Source of the DNA: Limnochordales bacterium
GTDB lineage: Bacteria; Bacillota; Limnochordia; Limnochordales; DUMU01
Assembly: GCA_014896315.1 (NCBI GenBank)
Contig: JADBKP010000005.1
Location: 186,001-250,000, forward strand
DNA length: 64,000 nucleotides
Direction of reading: 5' to 3'
Below, piece after piece: positions 50,531 to 61,467 of the stretch. The first letter of the stretch is position 1. Each line of letters starts with the position of its first letter. Made by a program: the position numbers and the translations under genes. A model generated the notes under the pieces. The model was not told the DNA's origin. It made no database searches and saw only the letters and a list, made by a program, of their open reading frames with translations.

Positions 50531-50629
50531 GTGGAGCTGCCCGCGCCGACCGCAGCCGGGGCGCAAACAGCCGGCCGTGATGGATGGTGCTCGGTATCAC
50601 GGCGAGTCCGGGGAGGTAGGGATGCTTGA
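50531..50629 (+). CDS. possible leader peptide of the ABC exporter (32 aa)
   Basis: GTG start seven bases after AAAGGAGGG (50515-50523), a near-perfect ribosome site. The 32-codon product begins MELPAPTAAG and ends RGGRDA; it matches no family. Its TGA overlaps the TTG start of the ATPase gene by two bases, so ribosomes ending here could restart there. A real small ORF or just coupled leader; alternatively the SD belongs to an overlapping 17-codon frame from GTG 50527. Confidence 0.35.
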   Translation: MELPAPTAAGAQTAGRDGWCSVSRRVRGGRDA

Positions 50630-51564
50630 CAGCAACAGTGGCCATAGAGGTACATGATCTGGTTAAGCGTTATGGGGACCTGGTGGCGGTGGGGGGAGTC
50701 AGCTTCACCGTTTACCAGGGCGAAACCTTTGGGTTGCTCGGGCCAAACGGCGCCGGGAAGACAACCACGCTGGAGATCATCGAGGGTTTGCGGCGCGCCG
50801 ATTCCGGGCGGGTGGTGGTGCAGGGGATCGATGTGTTCACCCACCCCCGGAAGGCCCGGGAGCTGATGGGAGTGCAACTGCAGGAGGCGGGCTTCTTCGA
50901 GAAGCTGACGGTTGCCGAGACGATCGCGACCTTCGGCAGGTTTCACCAGAAATCCGTGCCGGTAGAGCAGCTTCTGGCTCGCCTGCAGCTAGAGGAGAAA
51001 GCCCGCACCCTTGTGGAGAATCTCTCGGGCGGACAGCGGCAGCGGCTTTCCATTGCCCTGGCACTGGTGAACGATCCGCAGATCGTCTTCCTCGATGAAC
51101 CGACTACCGGTCTGGATCCGCAAGCTCGTCGTAACCTCTGGGACATCATCCGTTCTATTCGGGACGAGGGCAGGACTGTGATCCTGACCACCCACTACAT
51201 GGACGAGGCTGAGGAGCTTTGCGATCGGGTGGCGATCATGGATCAGGGGAAGATAATTGCCATCGACACTCCCGTCAACCTGATCCAGACTTACGCTCCC
51301 GGGGCGAAGGTGTACATTACCCCGCACCGGGAAGAGGAGGGCGAACGCATTGCTGAGCAGCTTCGAAGTCTACCCGGAGTTGAGGGAGTTGGAAAGAACG
51401 GCAATGGCGAGATCAGGCTGGATACGGAGCAGCTTGAGGCGACCGTTGGGGCTTTGGTCGAGCTGGGGCGGGGTGGAGAGGTTCAGTACCGCTCCATGCG
51501 TATCGAGGTGTCGAATCTCGAAGATGTCTTCCTCAAACTGACCGGCAGACGCCTGCGGGAGTAA
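50626..51564 (+). CDS. ABC transporter ATP-binding protein (ABC-2/DrrA type)
   Basis: 312-residue ATPase of an exporter. TTG start with GGGGAGG nine bases upstream. Walker A GPNGAGKTTTLEIIEG, Q-loop MGVQLQEAGFF, signature LSGGQRQRLSIAL, Walker B VFLDEPTTGLDP and the switch His in TTHYMDEAEELC. The C-terminal 80 residues form the extra domain common in DrrA/CcmA-like proteins. The permease gene follows after 13 bases. Substrate unknown; such pairs export drugs, lipids or peptides. Confidence 0.94.
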   Translation: MTATVAIEVHDLVKRYGDLVAVGGVSFTVYQGETFGLLGPNGAGKTTTLEIIEGLRRADSGRVVVQGIDVFTHPRKARELMGVQLQEAGFFEKLTVAETIATFGRFHQKSVPVEQLLARLQLEEKARTLVENLSGGQRQRLSIALALVNDPQIVFLDEPTTGLDPQARRNLWDIIRSIRDEGRTVILTTHYMDEAEELCDRVAIMDQGKIIAIDTPVNLIQTYAPGAKVYITPHREEEGERIAEQLRSLPGVEGVGKNGNGEIRLDTEQLEATVGALVELGRGGEVQYRSMRIEVSNLEDVFLKLTGRRLRE

Positions 51565-51577
51565 GGGGAAGAACGGG

Positions 51578-52729
51578 ATGGGGGTGATAGGGTTGCTTAA
51601 GGGGTTCTTAGCGGTGGCCGGCATGTCTCTTAGGACATTCTTGCGGGACAGAGGAGCGCTCTTTTGGGGGATCGCCTTCCCCCTGATGCTGATGGGCTTG
51701 ATCGGCGGCGTCTTTGGCCGCGCGGATAATCTGATCCTCACTACGTCGGTGGTCGGTAAGTCGGACCATCCTCTGATAGCAGGAATCGTCCAGGCGCTAA
51801 AAGAGATTCCCACCCTTAAGGTGGTGGAAGAGGACGAAGGAACTGCCCGTGAGGCGCTGAAGAAGGGGGATCGCAGTCTGGTAGTGGTCTTGCCCGCGCC
51901 GGACGATCTGGCAGCCTTTACGTCACCGCCGCAGCCGGCCGGGGCGGTTCCTGGCGTGGACGCCCCGCCTGCACCGGTGGCCATCAAAGTCTACTACGAC
52001 GAAGGACGGGCGCAGGTCTCCCAGGCCGGCATCGCCATCGTGCAGAGCGTTGTTCAAGAGTTTAACCGCCGTTTGACGCAGCGCCCCGATATATTGACGG
52101 TAGAAGCGACAGGAATCGCGAGTGCACAGGAGTTCAGAATGTTTGATTTCCTCCTGCCGGGATTTCTGGCGATGACCATCATGCAGACGGGCCTCATGGG
52201 AGTTACATGGGTGGTGAGTACTTATCGGGAACGTAGAGTTCTCAAAAGGGTACTGGCTACCCCCTTTCCTGCGGCCGCTTTCCTGGCCGGCCTGGTTGCC
52301 CGCTTCACCCTGACGAACCTGATGCAGGCGGCGATCATTGTGCTTGTGGCAGTACTTGTCTTCCACGCACGGGTGGTGGGGAGCTATGCCATCCTGGCCT
52401 TGCTGGCCGTGCTGGGATCGCTCACCTTCCTCGCCGTCGGCTTTGCCATCTCCACGGTCTCCAAGACCCCGGAGGCAGCGAACAACCTGGGTAGTGCTAT
52501 CGGTTTTCCCATGATGTTCTTGTCAGGGACTTTCTGGCCGAAGGAGATGATTCCGGACGCGCTGCAACCGGTGATTCAGGCACTGCCGCTAACCCCGCTG
52601 GTCGATGCGATGCGCGGCGTCGCCACCCAGGCCGCACCGCTCAGCGATTACGCGGGCGGACTGGCATACATGACCGTCTGGATGCTGGCCGCCTTTGCGC
52701 TGGCGACCTGGCGTTTCCGGTGGGAATGA
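51578..52729 (+). CDS. ABC-2 type exporter permease
   Basis: 383 residues. One helix at the N-terminus (LFWGIAFPLMLMGLIGGVFG), a large extracytoplasmic region (about residues 45-185) and five C-terminal helices (LLPGFLAMTIMQTGLMG; LMQAAIIVLVAVLVF; ILALLAVLGSLTFLAVGFAI; FPMMFLSGTFWPKEMIP; YMTVWMLAAFALATW), the ABC-2/DUF3533-like layout. The motif FLSGTFWPKEMIPDALQ is typical. ATG with AAGGGGAAGAACGGG upstream. Partner of the ATPase encoded before it. Confidence 0.92.
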   Translation: MGVIGLLKGFLAVAGMSLRTFLRDRGALFWGIAFPLMLMGLIGGVFGRADNLILTTSVVGKSDHPLIAGIVQALKEIPTLKVVEEDEGTAREALKKGDRSLVVVLPAPDDLAAFTSPPQPAGAVPGVDAPPAPVAIKVYYDEGRAQVSQAGIAIVQSVVQEFNRRLTQRPDILTVEATGIASAQEFRMFDFLLPGFLAMTIMQTGLMGVTWVVSTYRERRVLKRVLATPFPAAAFLAGLVARFTLTNLMQAAIIVLVAVLVFHARVVGSYAILALLAVLGSLTFLAVGFAISTVSKTPEAANNLGSAIGFPMMFLSGTFWPKEMIPDALQPVIQALPLTPLVDAMRGVATQAAPLSDYAGGLAYMTVWMLAAFALATWRFRWE

Positions 52730-52988: not shown

Positions 52989-53014
52989 GATTAGGATAAG
53001 TGTTCAGGAGGCAG

Positions 53015-53779
53015 GTGAGTCGCACGGTTTTCCGGGCTGTCCTCTTTGATTTCGACGGAACCCTGGTAGATACCATACCGGTCATTCTGGACTGCCTGGA
53101 GCAATCCTGGCGAGAAGTGATGGCAGACGCAGACGTGCCGGCAGGTGCTGAGTTCTTGAGCCTGGTCGGCAAGCCGCTGGAAACGATGATGGTGGAGCTT
53201 GTCACTCCCCGCTGGCAGCCTTGTATGCCGGCCATTGCGGAACTCACCGATAAGCTGGTATCTGCTTACCGGCGTCGGTATGAGACTGTGTCGCTGGAAG
53301 CTCGGGCGTTTCCGGGCACCACAAAGCTCCTTGAAGATCTGGGAGCCATGGAAGTACGGCGGGGGATCGTCACAAACAAAATCCGCCGCACCACTCTGCG
53401 GCAACTTCAACACCTGGGGCTGCGGTCCGAGTTTGACGTGGTTGTGACCGTTGAAGACGTCACTTGCCCCAAGCCGCACGCCGAGCCCCTTCAAGTTGCC
53501 GCCGAGCAGCTGGGCGTGAAGCTGGAAGAGACCGTATATGTTGGTGATACGGTTGCCGATGTGATGGCGGCTCGGAATGCCGGGGTGGGGTGCGTGGCCA
53601 TCGTTAGCTGGGGCGTGGCCGGGCGGTTGTACCGCCTCGCCCATGGCGACGAGCCCTGTGACCCGGCGCAGCTGACCGAGCCTGCTGCCGACATGCTATT
53701 GAAGGAGTGGGACTCCCTCATTCGTTTGATCCATTCCGGCTTCGGCACAACTCCGGGGTTGGATACTTACTGTCGGTGA
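53015..53779 (+). CDS. HAD-superfamily phosphatase (PpaX/Gph-like)
   Basis: Phosphatase of small phosphorylated compounds. HAD motifs: nucleophile Asp in LFDFDGTLVDT, VTNK for motif II, CPKPHAEPL (Lys) and YVGDTVADVMAARNAG for motif IV; the cap is alpha-helical (subfamily IA). 254 residues, longer than PpaX (about 216) because of a C-terminal tail after the usual end. The start is unclear: GTG 53015 is only 3 bases after AGGAGG; GTG 53000 has no site; the conserved part begins at VFRAVLFDFDGT, only a few codons later. Stands alone. Confidence 0.85.
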   Translation: MSRTVFRAVLFDFDGTLVDTIPVILDCLEQSWREVMADADVPAGAEFLSLVGKPLETMMVELVTPRWQPCMPAIAELTDKLVSAYRRRYETVSLEARAFPGTTKLLEDLGAMEVRRGIVTNKIRRTTLRQLQHLGLRSEFDVVVTVEDVTCPKPHAEPLQVAAEQLGVKLEETVYVGDTVADVMAARNAGVGCVAIVSWGVAGRLYRLAHGDEPCDPAQLTEPAADMLLKEWDSLIRLIHSGFGTTPGLDTYCR

Positions 53780-53794: not shown

Positions 53795-53823
53795 TTGCAC
53801 CTGTGGCGGCAGCGGCGTATCCT
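53795..53823 (+). promoter_or_regulatory. sigma-A-like promoter of the MFS/HTH pair
   Basis: TTGCAC (53795-53800), a 17-base spacer and TATCCT (53818-53823). It predicts a transcript start near 53830, at the edge of the 24-base palindrome that follows, and 55 bases before the exporter's ATG. Confidence 0.55.
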
Positions 53824-53830
53824 TGTAGCA

Positions 53831-53854
53831 GACGTCAAATATTGCTTTGACGTC
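53831..53854 (+). promoter_or_regulatory. operator-like palindrome before the MFS gene
   Basis: Perfect 9-base inverted repeat GACGTCAAA (53831-53839) / TTTGACGTC (53846-53854) around TATTGC. It starts at the predicted transcription start, so a bound protein would block the promoter. The likely ligand is the winged-helix regulator encoded at 55244-55903. Confidence 0.65.
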
Positions 53855-53885
53855 CAATGTGAATTTGGAAGAGGCGGATGGAGAT

Positions 53886-55265
53886 ATGGCTGAAGACGCT
53901 GCCGCGAAACGGGCAGAGGCTGATGAACGCTCCGGCGAGGCCGAGATCGGCGCTAAAGCCCGAGGGAACGCTGAGAGGCCATGGGCCGTGTTGACCTTCT
54001 TGCGTACCTATCCCGCCTTCACGTGGCTCTGGGTGGGTCAAATGGTATCCCGCCTTGGTGACTCTATTGACGCCATCGCCTTCGTATGGCTTGTGCTCGA
54101 ACTGACCGGCTCGACATTGCTGATGGGGACCCTGCTGGTGGTCAACATGCTCCCATCCATCCTGCTCAACCCTGTTGCCGGTGTCTGGATCGATCGTTTG
54201 CCCCGCCGCCCGGTCATTGTCATAAGCGACGCGGCGCGGGCTGTGACCACGGGTCTTGTTGCCGCCCTTTATCTGGCCGGCCTTCTGGAAGTCTGGCATC
54301 TTTACGTCGTGACCACCCTCAACTCCATCTTCGAAGCTTTTGCCGTCCCGGCCAGGGTGGCAGTCATAGCGCAGGTAGTATCAGGGGAGGATCTGGTCTC
54401 CGCCAACTCCCTGACCAGCCTTTCCTCGAGTCTGGCCTCGCTTTTCGGGCTTCTTCTGGCCGCTCCTCTCTTTAAACTGCTGGGCATTGCCGGGGCGATA
54501 GGGCTGGATGCAGCCACCTTTCTATTTGCTGCTCTCACCGCGCTGACGGCTTCCATCCCGGAGATCCCGACGGTCTCCGCCGGGCAGGAGGGAGGTAGGA
54601 CGACGCTGACCGGTGCCCTGACCTCGTTCTGGTCTGACCTGAGGGAGGGGATGCACCTAGTTATTACCCAGCGCGTCATACTCTATCTCATAATCCTGGC
54701 CGGATTGGCCAACTTCGCCTTCGGTCCGCTCGAGGTACTGATGCCCGTGTATGTAAGAGAAGTCTTGAAGATGGACGTCGGGCAGTTGTCCCAGGTCTAC
54801 CTGGCCTTTAGTCTAGGCGCCCTTGCCAGCGGTCTTCTTACTATGCGAGTGGCACGGAAGTGGCCGGAGGCGGTCCTGGTGCTAGTGGGGCTGGGCCTTA
54901 TGGGAACGGGGTACGCTTTCCTCTACTTCGCCCGCAGCTTTCTTGTTACACTTGGGCTGATAACGTTAATGGGGATTGGCCAGGCGCCGGCCCAGGCAGG
55001 GCTGAGGACGGCCGTCCAACGGAGGACACCTCCTGCGGTGCTCGGACGGGTGGCCGGTCTGCTGGGGACCTTTTCCCTCTCGGCTACGCCCCTCTCCCTG
55101 GCCCTTACCGGCGCCGTGGCAGAGGCGGTGGCAGCCCCGGTCATCTTTGGGGCTTTTGGCCTGCTGGTGCTTGTGCTCACCGTACTGATCCTAAGCCGCC
55201 CGGTCTTCGGTCTGTTTCAAACCTGCAAACCGGGAGCTATTCTATGGAAAAAGTCAAGCGGCTGA
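53886..55265 (+). CDS. MFS exporter (12-helix, macrolide-efflux-like)
   Basis: Major facilitator protein. From ATG 53886 there are 459 residues: a charged N-terminal tail of about 35, then twelve hydrophobic helices beginning FTWLWVGQMVSRLGDSIDAI, with the loop 2-3 motif DRLPRRPVIVISD. This layout fits the MefA/DHA3-like drug efflux group. TTG 53847 is in frame but falls inside the operator palindrome and has no ribosome site; ATG 53886 has GGAG nearby. The 3' end overlaps the HTH regulator gene by 22 bases. Substrate unknown. Confidence 0.88.
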   Translation: MAEDAAAKRAEADERSGEAEIGAKARGNAERPWAVLTFLRTYPAFTWLWVGQMVSRLGDSIDAIAFVWLVLELTGSTLLMGTLLVVNMLPSILLNPVAGVWIDRLPRRPVIVISDAARAVTTGLVAALYLAGLLEVWHLYVVTTLNSIFEAFAVPARVAVIAQVVSGEDLVSANSLTSLSSSLASLFGLLLAAPLFKLLGIAGAIGLDAATFLFAALTALTASIPEIPTVSAGQEGGRTTLTGALTSFWSDLREGMHLVITQRVILYLIILAGLANFAFGPLEVLMPVYVREVLKMDVGQLSQVYLAFSLGALASGLLTMRVARKWPEAVLVLVGLGLMGTGYAFLYFARSFLVTLGLITLMGIGQAPAQAGLRTAVQRRTPPAVLGRVAGLLGTFSLSATPLSLALTGAVAEAVAAPVIFGAFGLLVLVLTVLILSRPVFGLFQTCKPGAILWKKSSG

Positions 55266-55903
55266 ACCTGGAGCAACTGAAGCTGCTGGCGCACCCGTTG
55301 CGGCAGCGAATCCTGAGGGCTTTTGCCGGCGCCGAGCAACTCTCCGTGCAGGAGCTGGCCGAGCGGCTCAAACTACCGCACGGCAAAGTGTACTACCACG
55401 TGCAGCGGCTGGTAGCAGGGGGGTTGCTTGCCGAAAGCGGGCATCGCACCGTCAACGGCATCGTGGAAAGGCTTTATGAACCGGCGGCCGCCGATTTCAT
55501 CGTTGCAGACGAAGAGTTACGGCACCTGCCCGGCTACCATGTTCTTGCCGCCTGCGTCGTTGACAATGTGTTTGCCCAGTTAATCGAGATGTACCGGCGA
55601 TTTCAACAACTTCAGGCAGAACGGGCCGCAGCCGAACCTTCCCACCGTGCCAGTGATAACAACACCAACCGGCAGCCGGCCGGTTTTTCCGCCAGTTTTG
55701 CCGACCTGCTGCTCACAGCAGAAGAGGCGGAAGATCTGGGCCGCCGGGTCGCCGATCTTATTGACCGGTATCGGCAACGGCAAAGGGCGCGACAGAGCGC
55801 AGACGGAAGCAATGCTGTGTCACTGCAGCGGGTACAGTACGTCGTGCTCACCTTCACCAACCTTCCCCCCGAGTCTCCGAAGGCGGGAGAAGACAAACAG
55901 TAG
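55244..55903 (+). CDS. winged-helix (ArsR-like) transcription regulator
   Basis: 219 residues. Residues 8-75 form an ArsR/HTH_20-type winged helix: LKLLAHPLRQRILRAF, VQELAERLKLPHGKVYYHVQ, GLLAESGHRTVNGIVERLY. The C-terminal 130 residues are helical with a polar stretch (RASDNNTNRQPAG) and LLLTAEEAEDLGRRVADLIDRYRQ, a possible ligand or dimer domain. ATG 55244 has GGGAG nine bases upstream and overlaps the exporter gene, so both come from one mRNA. Probably controls the exporter through the palindrome at 53831. Confidence 0.88.
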   Translation: MEKVKRLNLEQLKLLAHPLRQRILRAFAGAEQLSVQELAERLKLPHGKVYYHVQRLVAGGLLAESGHRTVNGIVERLYEPAAADFIVADEELRHLPGYHVLAACVVDNVFAQLIEMYRRFQQLQAERAAAEPSHRASDNNTNRQPAGFSASFADLLLTAEEAEDLGRRVADLIDRYRQRQRARQSADGSNAVSLQRVQYVVLTFTNLPPESPKAGEDKQ

Positions 55904-56012: not shown

Positions 56013-57362
56013 GTGTTCACTGGAAGGAAGGCAGGGCACAAAGCGCGTACAGGGGCGGCGCAGGTGCTGGTTGGGGGTCTGGGGATCGCGGCGCTGCTCG
56101 GGTTCGTTGTCGCCGGTCCGGCAGCCGCGGCGACAAAGGTTACCATTGTTCACTACGGATACTACTGGCATGGGGAGGCGTGGCGTAACTTCGTTGACTG
56201 GGCGGCCAGGGAGTTTGAGAAGAGCCATCCCAACATCGACATTCAGATCACCGTAGCGGGCGGCCCAAACCAGGGAGCCTACGATCAGAAGCTTGTCAGC
56301 ATGATTGCTGGTGGCACTCCTCCCGACGTCGCTGAGATGAATGCCAACCAAGCTCATAGCTTTGTCAGCCAGGATGTCTTCCTTGATCTGCGACCCCTGA
56401 TGGCAAAGGAAAAGAGCCTTTCCTGGGATGTTTTTTCGCCCGCAGCGGTGCAGATGGCTACCTGGACCGATGGCCGCATCTGGGGCGTTCCGATCGACGT
56501 CTTCCCCACGTTCACCTTTTTCAACCAGGATCTCTTCGAGGAAACCGGATTGCAGACGCCGGTAGACCTTGGGCCCAAGGGTTGGACATGGGATGCACTG
56601 CTCAAGGCAGCCACCCGGCTGACCGTTGATACCAACGGCGACGGGATCATGGACCGGTACGGCCTGGATCGGCTGTGGGCCTGGTGGGGTGCGGCAGTAC
56701 ATCAGGCCGGCGGAGAGCTCTATAACAGGACGATTAACCCGACCCGGGCTACCTACAACACCCCTGCGGTCATCCAGGGGCTCAAGTTTGTGCAGGATCT
56801 GTACTGGAAGTACAAGGTAGCAGTGCCCAACACCACGGGTACATCGTCGACTCACACCTTCTGGTTTGGCAACGTGGGGATATCGACGGTTGACGGCCCC
56901 GGTCGTATCGGGGCGTCCCTGCGGGACGTCAAGTTCACCTGGGATGTAGGCCCGCAGCCGCGCGGTCCGGCACGGGGTGGTAGCCGGTTTACCATGGATG
57001 CCATCGAAGTGTTGGCCAGCACTAAGCACCCCGCGGAGGTCTGGGAGTGGGTTAAGTTCCTGACCACCAATGAAACCGTCGTACGCCGCTTTGTGGCCGA
57101 TACCGGCCGCCTGCCGGCGCTCAAATCGGTACAGGGTGAGTATACCCGGCTTGTGCCTTACGGTCCCCGCCATGCTGCCTACATGGCCTACGAGGCCGCC
57201 AATCCCGAAAGCGCTCCGGTTTACCTGATTCCGCGAGCCATGGAGGTCGATGCCATCAAGAACCCGCTTATCCAGCAGGTGCTCGATGGCACGAGAGATC
57301 CGGCCGCGGTGGTGGTGGAGATCGACGAGAAACTAAACCGGCTCTTTGCGAGTCAGAAGTAG
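56013..57362 (+). CDS. extracellular solute-binding protein, family 1
   Basis: 449-residue sugar-type binding protein. GTG start behind GGAGG/CAGGAGAG; Sec signal ending VVAGPAAAATK. Mature part: VTIVHYGYYWHGEAWRNFVDWA, NPIDI-like SHPNIDIQIT, GGTPPDVAEMNANQ, GKGWTWDALLKAATRLT-like KGWTWDALLKAATRLT and MDAIEVLASTKHPAEVWEWVKFL, all typical. As with the protein at 1667-2995, no permease is next to it; the next gene faces it. A second, strongly SD-led ATG at 55954 opens another frame across this start (see findings). Ligand unknown. Confidence 0.88.
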   Translation: MFTGRKAGHKARTGAAQVLVGGLGIAALLGFVVAGPAAAATKVTIVHYGYYWHGEAWRNFVDWAAREFEKSHPNIDIQITVAGGPNQGAYDQKLVSMIAGGTPPDVAEMNANQAHSFVSQDVFLDLRPLMAKEKSLSWDVFSPAAVQMATWTDGRIWGVPIDVFPTFTFFNQDLFEETGLQTPVDLGPKGWTWDALLKAATRLTVDTNGDGIMDRYGLDRLWAWWGAAVHQAGGELYNRTINPTRATYNTPAVIQGLKFVQDLYWKYKVAVPNTTGTSSTHTFWFGNVGISTVDGPGRIGASLRDVKFTWDVGPQPRGPARGGSRFTMDAIEVLASTKHPAEVWEWVKFLTTNETVVRRFVADTGRLPALKSVQGEYTRLVPYGPRHAAYMAYEAANPESAPVYLIPRAMEVDAIKNPLIQQVLDGTRDPAAVVVEIDEKLNRLFASQK

Positions 57363-59678: not shown

Positions 59679-59865
59679 AACGGATCACCCCTCCTGCTTA
59701 ATCGTCTTACCTTATGCCGGTAATAAGGCCGCACCCAGGCCGCCGGCTTTCGGCCAACTCAGCGACTGCGGTGAACAACAAAGCGGCCGGGTGCGGTGAG
59801 TGGATGGTCGAACCTACCAATCGCTGATTGTGCATTCTACAGTGAACGGTCCTTTCCTTGTCCTC

Positions 59866-59894
59866 TTGACAGTCGGCAGGCGGGCAATTAAGGT
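59866..59894 (+). promoter_or_regulatory. sigma-A promoter of the second MFS gene
   Basis: Consensus TTGACA (59866-59871), a 17-base spacer and TAAGGT (59889-59894). It predicts a start near 59901, about 50 bases before the ATG. The rest of 59679-59865, between the divergent DUF4855 gene and this promoter, shows no gene. Confidence 0.65.
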
Positions 59895-59899
59895 AGACA

Positions 59900-59914
59900 G
59901 ACAAGGGCCTTGTC
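59900..59914 (+). promoter_or_regulatory. operator-like palindrome at the transcript start
   Basis: GACAAGG-G-CCTTGTC, a perfect 7+1+7 palindrome six bases after the -10. Its place at +1 suits a repressor. No regulator gene is adjacent, so the protein would be encoded elsewhere. Confidence 0.5.
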
Positions 59915-59949
59915 CCATCCTCATGCTGGGGTTATGTGTGGAGCGCAAG

Positions 59950-61467
59950 ATGTTGAGTAGAGATGCCGTAGGTGCTGGCGAGGCAGGAGTTGCCAGCTCT
60001 TCCCGGTGGGTTATACTGACCGCTCTTGCCGTCGGCACGATCATGGGGCCGCTCGATAGCAGCGTGGTCAACATTGCGTTGCCGCAGATTCAGGCCGCGT
60101 TTGGAGTGGACCTGGCTGCTGTCGAGTGGGTCTCCATGATCTACTTGTTCGTCATCAGTTCTCTGTTGCTGACGTTTGGCCGCGTGGGCGATCTTTACGG
60201 GCATCGCTCTGTATATCTGGCAGGCTTCACGGTTTTTACCGCGGGTTCACTGTTGTGCAGCATCGCCCCGTCACTCCCGGTCCTGCTGGTCTCCCGGGGC
60301 ATTCAGGCCGTCGGAGCGAGTATGTTGATGGCCGCCGGACCGGCCATCCTTACCGAAGTCTTCCCGCCGCGAGAACGCGGTCAGGCGCTGGGGCTTAACG
60401 CCATGGTGGTGGCGGTTGGCTTGGCGATGGGGCCGATCGCGGGTGGCTACCTGGTTGACCATCTGGGGTGGCGTGCCATTTTCTACATAAACTTGCCCAT
60501 TGGTCTGCTCGGGACTGCCTGGGCCTCTCGGGTGCTGCCAAAGGTTGCCCCGGCAGCCGCAAGCGAAGGCGGATTGCACCAGCGGACCCGGTTCGATTAT
60601 GGGGGAGCTACTCTCCTTGCTATTGCTTTGGGAGCTCTGCTGCTTGCCATCAGCCAGGGTCAGAACTGGAGCTGGGGATCGATGCCCGTGATAGGACTCT
60701 TGGTGGGAGGGGTATTGTCGCTTGTTCTTTTTGTCCATACCGAGCGACAGAACCCGGCCTCCCTGGTCGACCTGAGCCTTTTCCGCCAGCGCCTTTTCGC
60801 TGCTGCCAACGCCAGCGCGCTCTTGAACTACCTGACGCAATACATGGTCACGTTCTTGATGCCCTTCTACCTGCAGAACTTGCTCGGTCTTCCTCCCAGT
60901 CGTGCCGGTGAACTGTTGATTGCCTACCCGCTGGCGGTGATGCTGGTCGCCCCGCTGGCCGGATGGCTCTCAGATAGAATCGGCTCGCTCTATCTGGCCG
61001 CGACGGGAATGGGAGTAATGTCATTGGCCGCGTTGTGCCTCAGCCAGCTGAACGCGGCTGCTACTGCCTCCGACGTTCTCTGGCGGCTCAGCCTGTTTGG
61101 GATCGGCAGCGGACTCTTCCAGTCGCCTAACAACAACGCGATCATGGGCAGCGTTCCGCGTCCGCGCCTGGGCCAGGCATCGGGGATGCTGGCCACCATG
61201 CGGAATATGGGGATGGTACTGGGGATTGCGGTGAGCGGAGCAACCTTCAGCGGGCGGCTGGCGGTGCATCTGCGGGACCTGGGAGTAGCCCACGTGGCCC
61301 AAGATGTGGCCGCGGCCGACATCCTGCGCCGGCAGGCTTTCGTGATGAGTCTGCACGACACCTTTCTCGTTGCGGCGGCGCTGGCCGCGTTCGGAGTAGT
61401 AACCTCCCTTGTGCGCGGTCGCAGCCTTCCACAACCTGGACAGCGGAGTAGGATCGAGGCCAGGTAG
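59950..61467 (+). CDS. EmrB/QacA-type MFS drug exporter (14 helices)
   Basis: 505 residues. DHA2-family marks: WVILTALAVGTIMGPLDSSVVNIALPQI (helix 1, motif D-like), GRVGDLYGHRSVYLAG (motif A), SRGIQAVGASMLMAAGPAILTE (motif B) and MGPIAGGYLVDHLGWRAIFYINLPIG (motif C, antiporter signature). About 14 helices. ATG 59950 has GGAG six bases upstream; ATG 59923 is an alternative. It is likely a proton-driven exporter of toxic compounds. Single gene with its own promoter and palindrome. Confidence 0.93.
   Translation: MLSRDAVGAGEAGVASSSRWVILTALAVGTIMGPLDSSVVNIALPQIQAAFGVDLAAVEWVSMIYLFVISSLLLTFGRVGDLYGHRSVYLAGFTVFTAGSLLCSIAPSLPVLLVSRGIQAVGASMLMAAGPAILTEVFPPRERGQALGLNAMVVAVGLAMGPIAGGYLVDHLGWRAIFYINLPIGLLGTAWASRVLPKVAPAAASEGGLHQRTRFDYGGATLLAIALGALLLAISQGQNWSWGSMPVIGLLVGGVLSLVLFVHTERQNPASLVDLSLFRQRLFAAANASALLNYLTQYMVTFLMPFYLQNLLGLPPSRAGELLIAYPLAVMLVAPLAGWLSDRIGSLYLAATGMGVMSLAALCLSQLNAAATASDVLWRLSLFGIGSGLFQSPNNNAIMGSVPRPRLGQASGMLATMRNMGMVLGIAVSGATFSGRLAVHLRDLGVAHVAQDVAAADILRRQAFVMSLHDTFLVAAALAAFGVVTSLVRGRSLPQPGQRSRIEAR

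Follow-up and report, generated by a model that had tools for sequence, protein, structure and literature searches.

Two overlapping genes in the 64,000-nucleotide stretch of DNA analysed here (the window) probably form a self-contained, locally autoregulated export operon, with a winged-helix (wHTH) repressor that would sit at the predicted transcription start and be released by a ligand. We put the probability of this reading, which is built on sequence comparison, at roughly 0.8. We infer that the product of the second gene, an HTH_20/ArsR-type wHTH protein, binds the dyad CGTCAAA-N6-TTTGACG at the predicted start as a dimer, and that it acts by repression rather than activation; a second dimer would probably occupy a weaker dyad 18 bp downstream. 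The bound regulator would block initiation or early clearance at the single promoter serving both genes, and in Clostridia its dimers would also cover the -35 box. A small molecule exported by the pump, or a relative of it, would bind the C-terminal domain and release the repressor, after which export and fresh regulator synthesis would restore repression.

The exporter and regulator genes

The first gene, predicted to be an MFS pump and confirmed as such by a score above the Pfam gathering threshold, lies on the + strand at 53886-55265 and encodes a 459 aa protein whose N-terminus carries a charged extension ahead of TM1 (E-values of 4.9e-38 for PF07690 and 9.7e-20 for PF05977). The match to PF07690 (MFS_1) reaches 131.4 bits against a gathering cut-off of 33.4, and the gathering score of MFS_3 is also exceeded. 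The best start is the ATG at 53886, with the stop at 55265; a longer frame from a TTG at 53847 is unlikely because it opens within the palindrome described below. The exporter belongs to a broad MFS branch in common with TIGR00900 (2A0121 H+ antiporter), the Mef macrolide exporters and EntS, but unlike members of these families it scores under each curated NCBIfam cut-off (225 bits against 320 for TIGR00900, 88 against 324 for EntS, and 101 against 675 for Mef(A), too low for a Mef-type macrolide exporter), and its substrate can therefore not be named.

The second gene, also as predicted, encodes a winged-helix protein and overlaps the first by 22 bp (55244-55903, + strand, starting at the ATG at 55244). 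Its 219 aa product has a wHTH at residues about 10-80, with the recognition helix beginning at H46, and a C-terminal domain at about 90-219. HTH_20 (PF12840) is matched at 55.1 bits (E-value 7.3e-15, cut-off 27), and is matched by 6/6 regulator homologues tested; there is also a weaker similarity to ArsR (HTH_5). Scores stay below the cut-offs of NF033788 for ArsR/SmtB metalloregulators (32.4 bits against 55) and of PRK06474 (NF005061; 38.5 against 121). With only one cysteine, C104, the protein lacks a cysteine-pair metal site.

Modelling of the C-terminal part, one of the checks proposed with the original prediction, left its 130 residues without a confident structure: in the AlphaFold model pLDDT is about 90 for the wHTH and about 45, mostly below 55, for the C-terminal part, and given this poor model a fold match there is not counted as evidence. 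The regulator had been called undescribed, which is true in that it matches no curated equivalog above cut-off; however, a wHTH with a similar C-terminal domain is present in solved structures, and the same layout recurs in many Bacillota proteins.

Promoter and palindrome

The predicted promoter TTGCAC-N17-TATCCT is found exactly as described, with a -35-like box at 53795-53800 and a -10-like box at 53818-53823 (+ strand) separated by exactly 17 bp. The TTGC and the 17-bp spacing are kept in two related Limnochordia genomes (L019 and L020), as is a TAT..T 9 bp from the operator core. The hexamers taken alone are weak, and a promoter scan with a threshold of 9 of 12 detected none here. Transcription is predicted to start at about 53830, immediately ahead of the perfect 9-6-9 palindrome (53831-53854, strandless), which also stands as predicted. 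This putative primary operator reads GACGTCAAA-TATTGC-TTTGACGTC, has the core CGTCAAA-N6-TTTGACG at 53833-53852, and is kept upstream of orthologous exporters. A dimer site centred on TTTGACGTCAAA was considered and is less likely, since its half-sites would be only about 5 bp apart.

With up to 3 mismatches allowed, 0.01 chance occurrences of the palindrome are expected per window. At the same tolerance, the proposed search of the genome (2.59 Mb) returned this copy as the sole intergenic match. The two other matches (2 and 3 mismatches) both fall inside open frames, so the palindrome is taken as a single local site; a regulon of such sites was rejected, as a second intergenic site with up to 3 mismatches is absent genome-wide.

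Conservation of the gene pair and its operator

Full-length homologues were first found in the two Limnochordia genomes and in Clostridia (L021-L023); a profile search added many more genomes, and longer stretches were taken round 60 homologues. Among the loci examined, 21, including the window, have the order exporter then regulator, in Limnochordia and Clostridia. A dyad CGTYAAA-N5/6-TTTRACG lies in the 130 bp preceding the exporter in 20 of these 21 related and hence not independent loci, two pairs of which are near copies. Compared with dinucleotide shuffles, the best upstream dyad has p <= 0.02 in 20/21 loci (mostly 0 to 0.005), values that are descriptive only, since the loci scored were also the source of the consensus. 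A fixed N6 spacer was dropped: scanning the homologues with N6 only gave almost no dyads beyond the window, and a scan of N4 to N7 revealed that Clostridia use N5.

The single exception is a related Limnochordia genome (G004), in which the exporter directly follows another gene without an operator before it, and in which the regulator frame opens within the recognition helix, the remainder of the wHTH being lost. This is one event, and it is what a joint loss of operator and DNA-binding domain would look like. The regulator homologue next to the exporter in this genome (L024; G004:C1:2070800-2076500, minus strand) thus lacks most of its winged helix and keeps the C-terminal domain, which makes it a natural test of that domain acting alone.

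Since the gene neighbours of the cassette are unlike one another in the window and in the two Limnochordia relatives, the operator site travels with the gene pair. The comparison of 21 loci thus backs the view of an ArsR-like regulator and an MFS exporter as one operon, and the architecture of an autoregulated repressor-exporter operon, namely a shared operon with a conserved promoter dyad, is present. The claim of autoregulation is strengthened to the extent that the palindrome, being kept at the promoters of orthologous operons despite different neighbourhoods, is a probable autoregulatory operator. Other homologues (L123-L136 and similar) have no such exporter upstream and no clear dyad; many of them carry PHAKINYH or PHAKVNYH helices, and several sit behind their own promoter.

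Tandem dyads

The original prediction named a single palindrome, which is present, but it overlooked a probable weaker dyad, CGTCCAA-tgtgaa-TTTGGAA (53851-53870, strandless), which lies 18 bp downstream of the first and has a CG in common with it. This second dyad matches 10 of 14 consensus positions, a score attained by 0.2% of the CG-anchored sites of the window, and the site at the matching offset scores 11/14 in L019 and 9/14 in L020. Self-similarity at a lag of 18 bp has p 0.01 in the window and is not significant in L019 or L020 taken singly. The second dyad is probably real, though weak, and the palindrome at 53831-53854 probably belongs to a longer tandem array as its strongest element.

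Arrays of this kind are clearer elsewhere. In a larger group of Clostridia, two or three copies of CGTTAAA-N5-TTTAACG follow one another in tandem with a period of 17 bp, and two loci in which the regulator gene comes first (L167-L168) have CGATAAA-N6-TTTATCG with an 18-bp period; a third regulator-first locus (L169) has a weaker version of the CGATAAA type that is not significant. In each array the period is 12 bp longer than the spacer, giving 17 bp for N5 and 18 bp for N6. One further locus (L122; G288:C30) has three direct copies of the 17-bp unit GAACGTTATAATAAATT upstream of the exporter, with only a short outer dyad, and this repeat is a divergent form of the array.

Promoter geometry

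The window, L019 and L020 are identical in geometry, with boxes N17 apart and 9 bp from the end of the -10 box to the core dyad. In four Clostridia (L021, L022, L023 and L142) the boxes are also N17 apart, the distance from the -10 end to the core dyad is 8 bp, and the -35 hexamer falls inside a second dyad located exactly 50 bp upstream. These four have near-consensus promoters (10-12 of 12). In Limnochordia the promoter boxes match poorly (7-8 of 12).

Such poor boxes might suit an activated promoter, and the regulator could then be an activator, or a dual regulator requiring its ligand to bind. We consider this very unlikely. The sites overlap about +1 to +24, positions that are typical of repression and where a bound activator is unlikely, and the Clostridia sites also cover the -35 box of promoters that are already close to consensus.

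The geometry also bears on whether the palindrome works in RNA, where a hairpin at the 5' terminus of the mRNA would make it more stable or attenuate its translation. In the window transcript the perfect repeat does form a hairpin of 9 bp (z -1.6), but the hairpin is not the best fold in the L019 transcript (z +0.9) and is only shorter in L020. Conservation concerns the sequence CGTCAAA/TTTGACG and not the pairing, and the second copy over the -35 box in the four Clostridia lies beyond the transcript. A role in RNA is accordingly rated as highly improbable, and a DNA operator for a repressor is the reading followed here.

Recognition helix and operator

The opening residues of the recognition helix vary together with the operator base, C or T. 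Residues H-G at positions 46-47 (PHGKVYYH or AHGKVYYH) are found in 7/7 proteins whose dyads are CGTCAAA, CATCAAA or CGCCAAA; CGTTAAA dyads go with VPA-type residues and CGATAAA dyads with VPS. This covariation is indirect but specific evidence that a regulator of the window type, and not another protein, would read the dyad. In the regulator tree the HG proteins of Limnochordia and Clostridia stand apart, and a single HG clade is rejected (AU p 0.019); given that the AU test was chosen after the tree had been seen and that the tree has long branches, a double origin of HG is a suggestion.

The covariation can be set against the idea that the palindrome is read by a different, global regulator and that the neighbouring wHTH gene has another target. 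The regulator gene does come last in the operon, and its binding to the palindrome is deduced from sequence. However, the only intergenic copy of the palindrome in the genome is here, the site and the gene pair co-occur in unrelated neighbourhoods, operator and wHTH are both lost in G004, and the recognition helix changes with the operator base; a global regulator is on these grounds distinctly unlikely, and the cognate wHTH protein remains the favoured reader of the site.

More tentatively, and at a little short of even odds, Bacillota wHTH-MFS cassettes may share abutting tandem dyads with a period of spacer plus 12, with the PHG, VPA or VPS residues setting the half-site and the HG-CGTCAAA combination having possibly arisen twice. 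PHG would then specify CGTCAAA, and VPA/VPS would specify CGTTAAA/CGATAAA, in a cassette family widespread in Bacillota; if this is true, the period of spacer plus 12 would line dimers up across the promoter. What began as a guess at one palindrome is now an operator family open to testing, with a candidate code linking protein and DNA. A compact cassette moving as a unit helps to predict the targets of unnamed ArsR-like regulators, and might be usable as a sensor part, given the identity of the ligand.

Comparison with known systems

ArsR/SmtB metalloregulators (SmtB, CadC, CzrA) have a dyad operator at the promoter, as in the window cassette. The regulator matches them in its winged-helix fold and partially in HTH_5 and NF033788, but differs in being 219 aa long, with an extended C-terminal domain, and in having no cysteine pair; the relatives of the cassette also differ in carrying tandem dyads with a 17/18-bp period. 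PRK06474/NF005061, whose function is unnamed, is matched by 6/6 aligned proteins over much of their own length (residues 11-188 of the window protein, which is a relative of this family and not a member).

The nearest solved matches in sequence and fold are PH1932 of Pyrococcus horikoshii (1uly/2cwe) and Kfla_6221 of Kribbella flavida (4g6q). In both, a C-terminal domain of about the same length comes after the wHTH, but identity to the window regulator is about 22%, and the poor model of the C-terminal part makes the match in that region uncertain. No functional study of PH1932 or Kfla_6221 was found in a literature search. The search, which covered few subscription papers, also returned no study of these operator sequences or of a Clostridium ArsR-MFS operator, and none on PH1932-like regulators of MFS pumps.

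The closest functional precedent considered is PyeR of Pseudomonas aeruginosa, an ArsR-family repressor that, in the account of Mac Aogain 2012 given in PMC7950407, autorepresses an operon with the MFS gene pyeM. By that account, the PyeR-PyeM-XenB system likewise combines an ArsR-family repressor and an MFS transporter in one operon, but has the regulator gene first, xenB as a third gene, and control by MexT. Because of this precedent, the repressor-exporter kind is already known; what the present comparison would add to it is a well-supported operator family, as predicted from sequence.

Genes neighbouring the cassette

Just upstream of the cassette lie an ABC exporter pair (50626-52729; a DrrA-like ATPase and an ABC-2 permease) and, after it, a HAD-family hydrolase (53000-53779). 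Directly downstream of the regulator is an extracellular solute-binding protein (56013-57362; PF01547), and a terminator search of the + strand between these two genes found none. About 4 kb downstream there is a second MFS gene (59800-61467), predicted to be a drug transporter of the 14-TM type.
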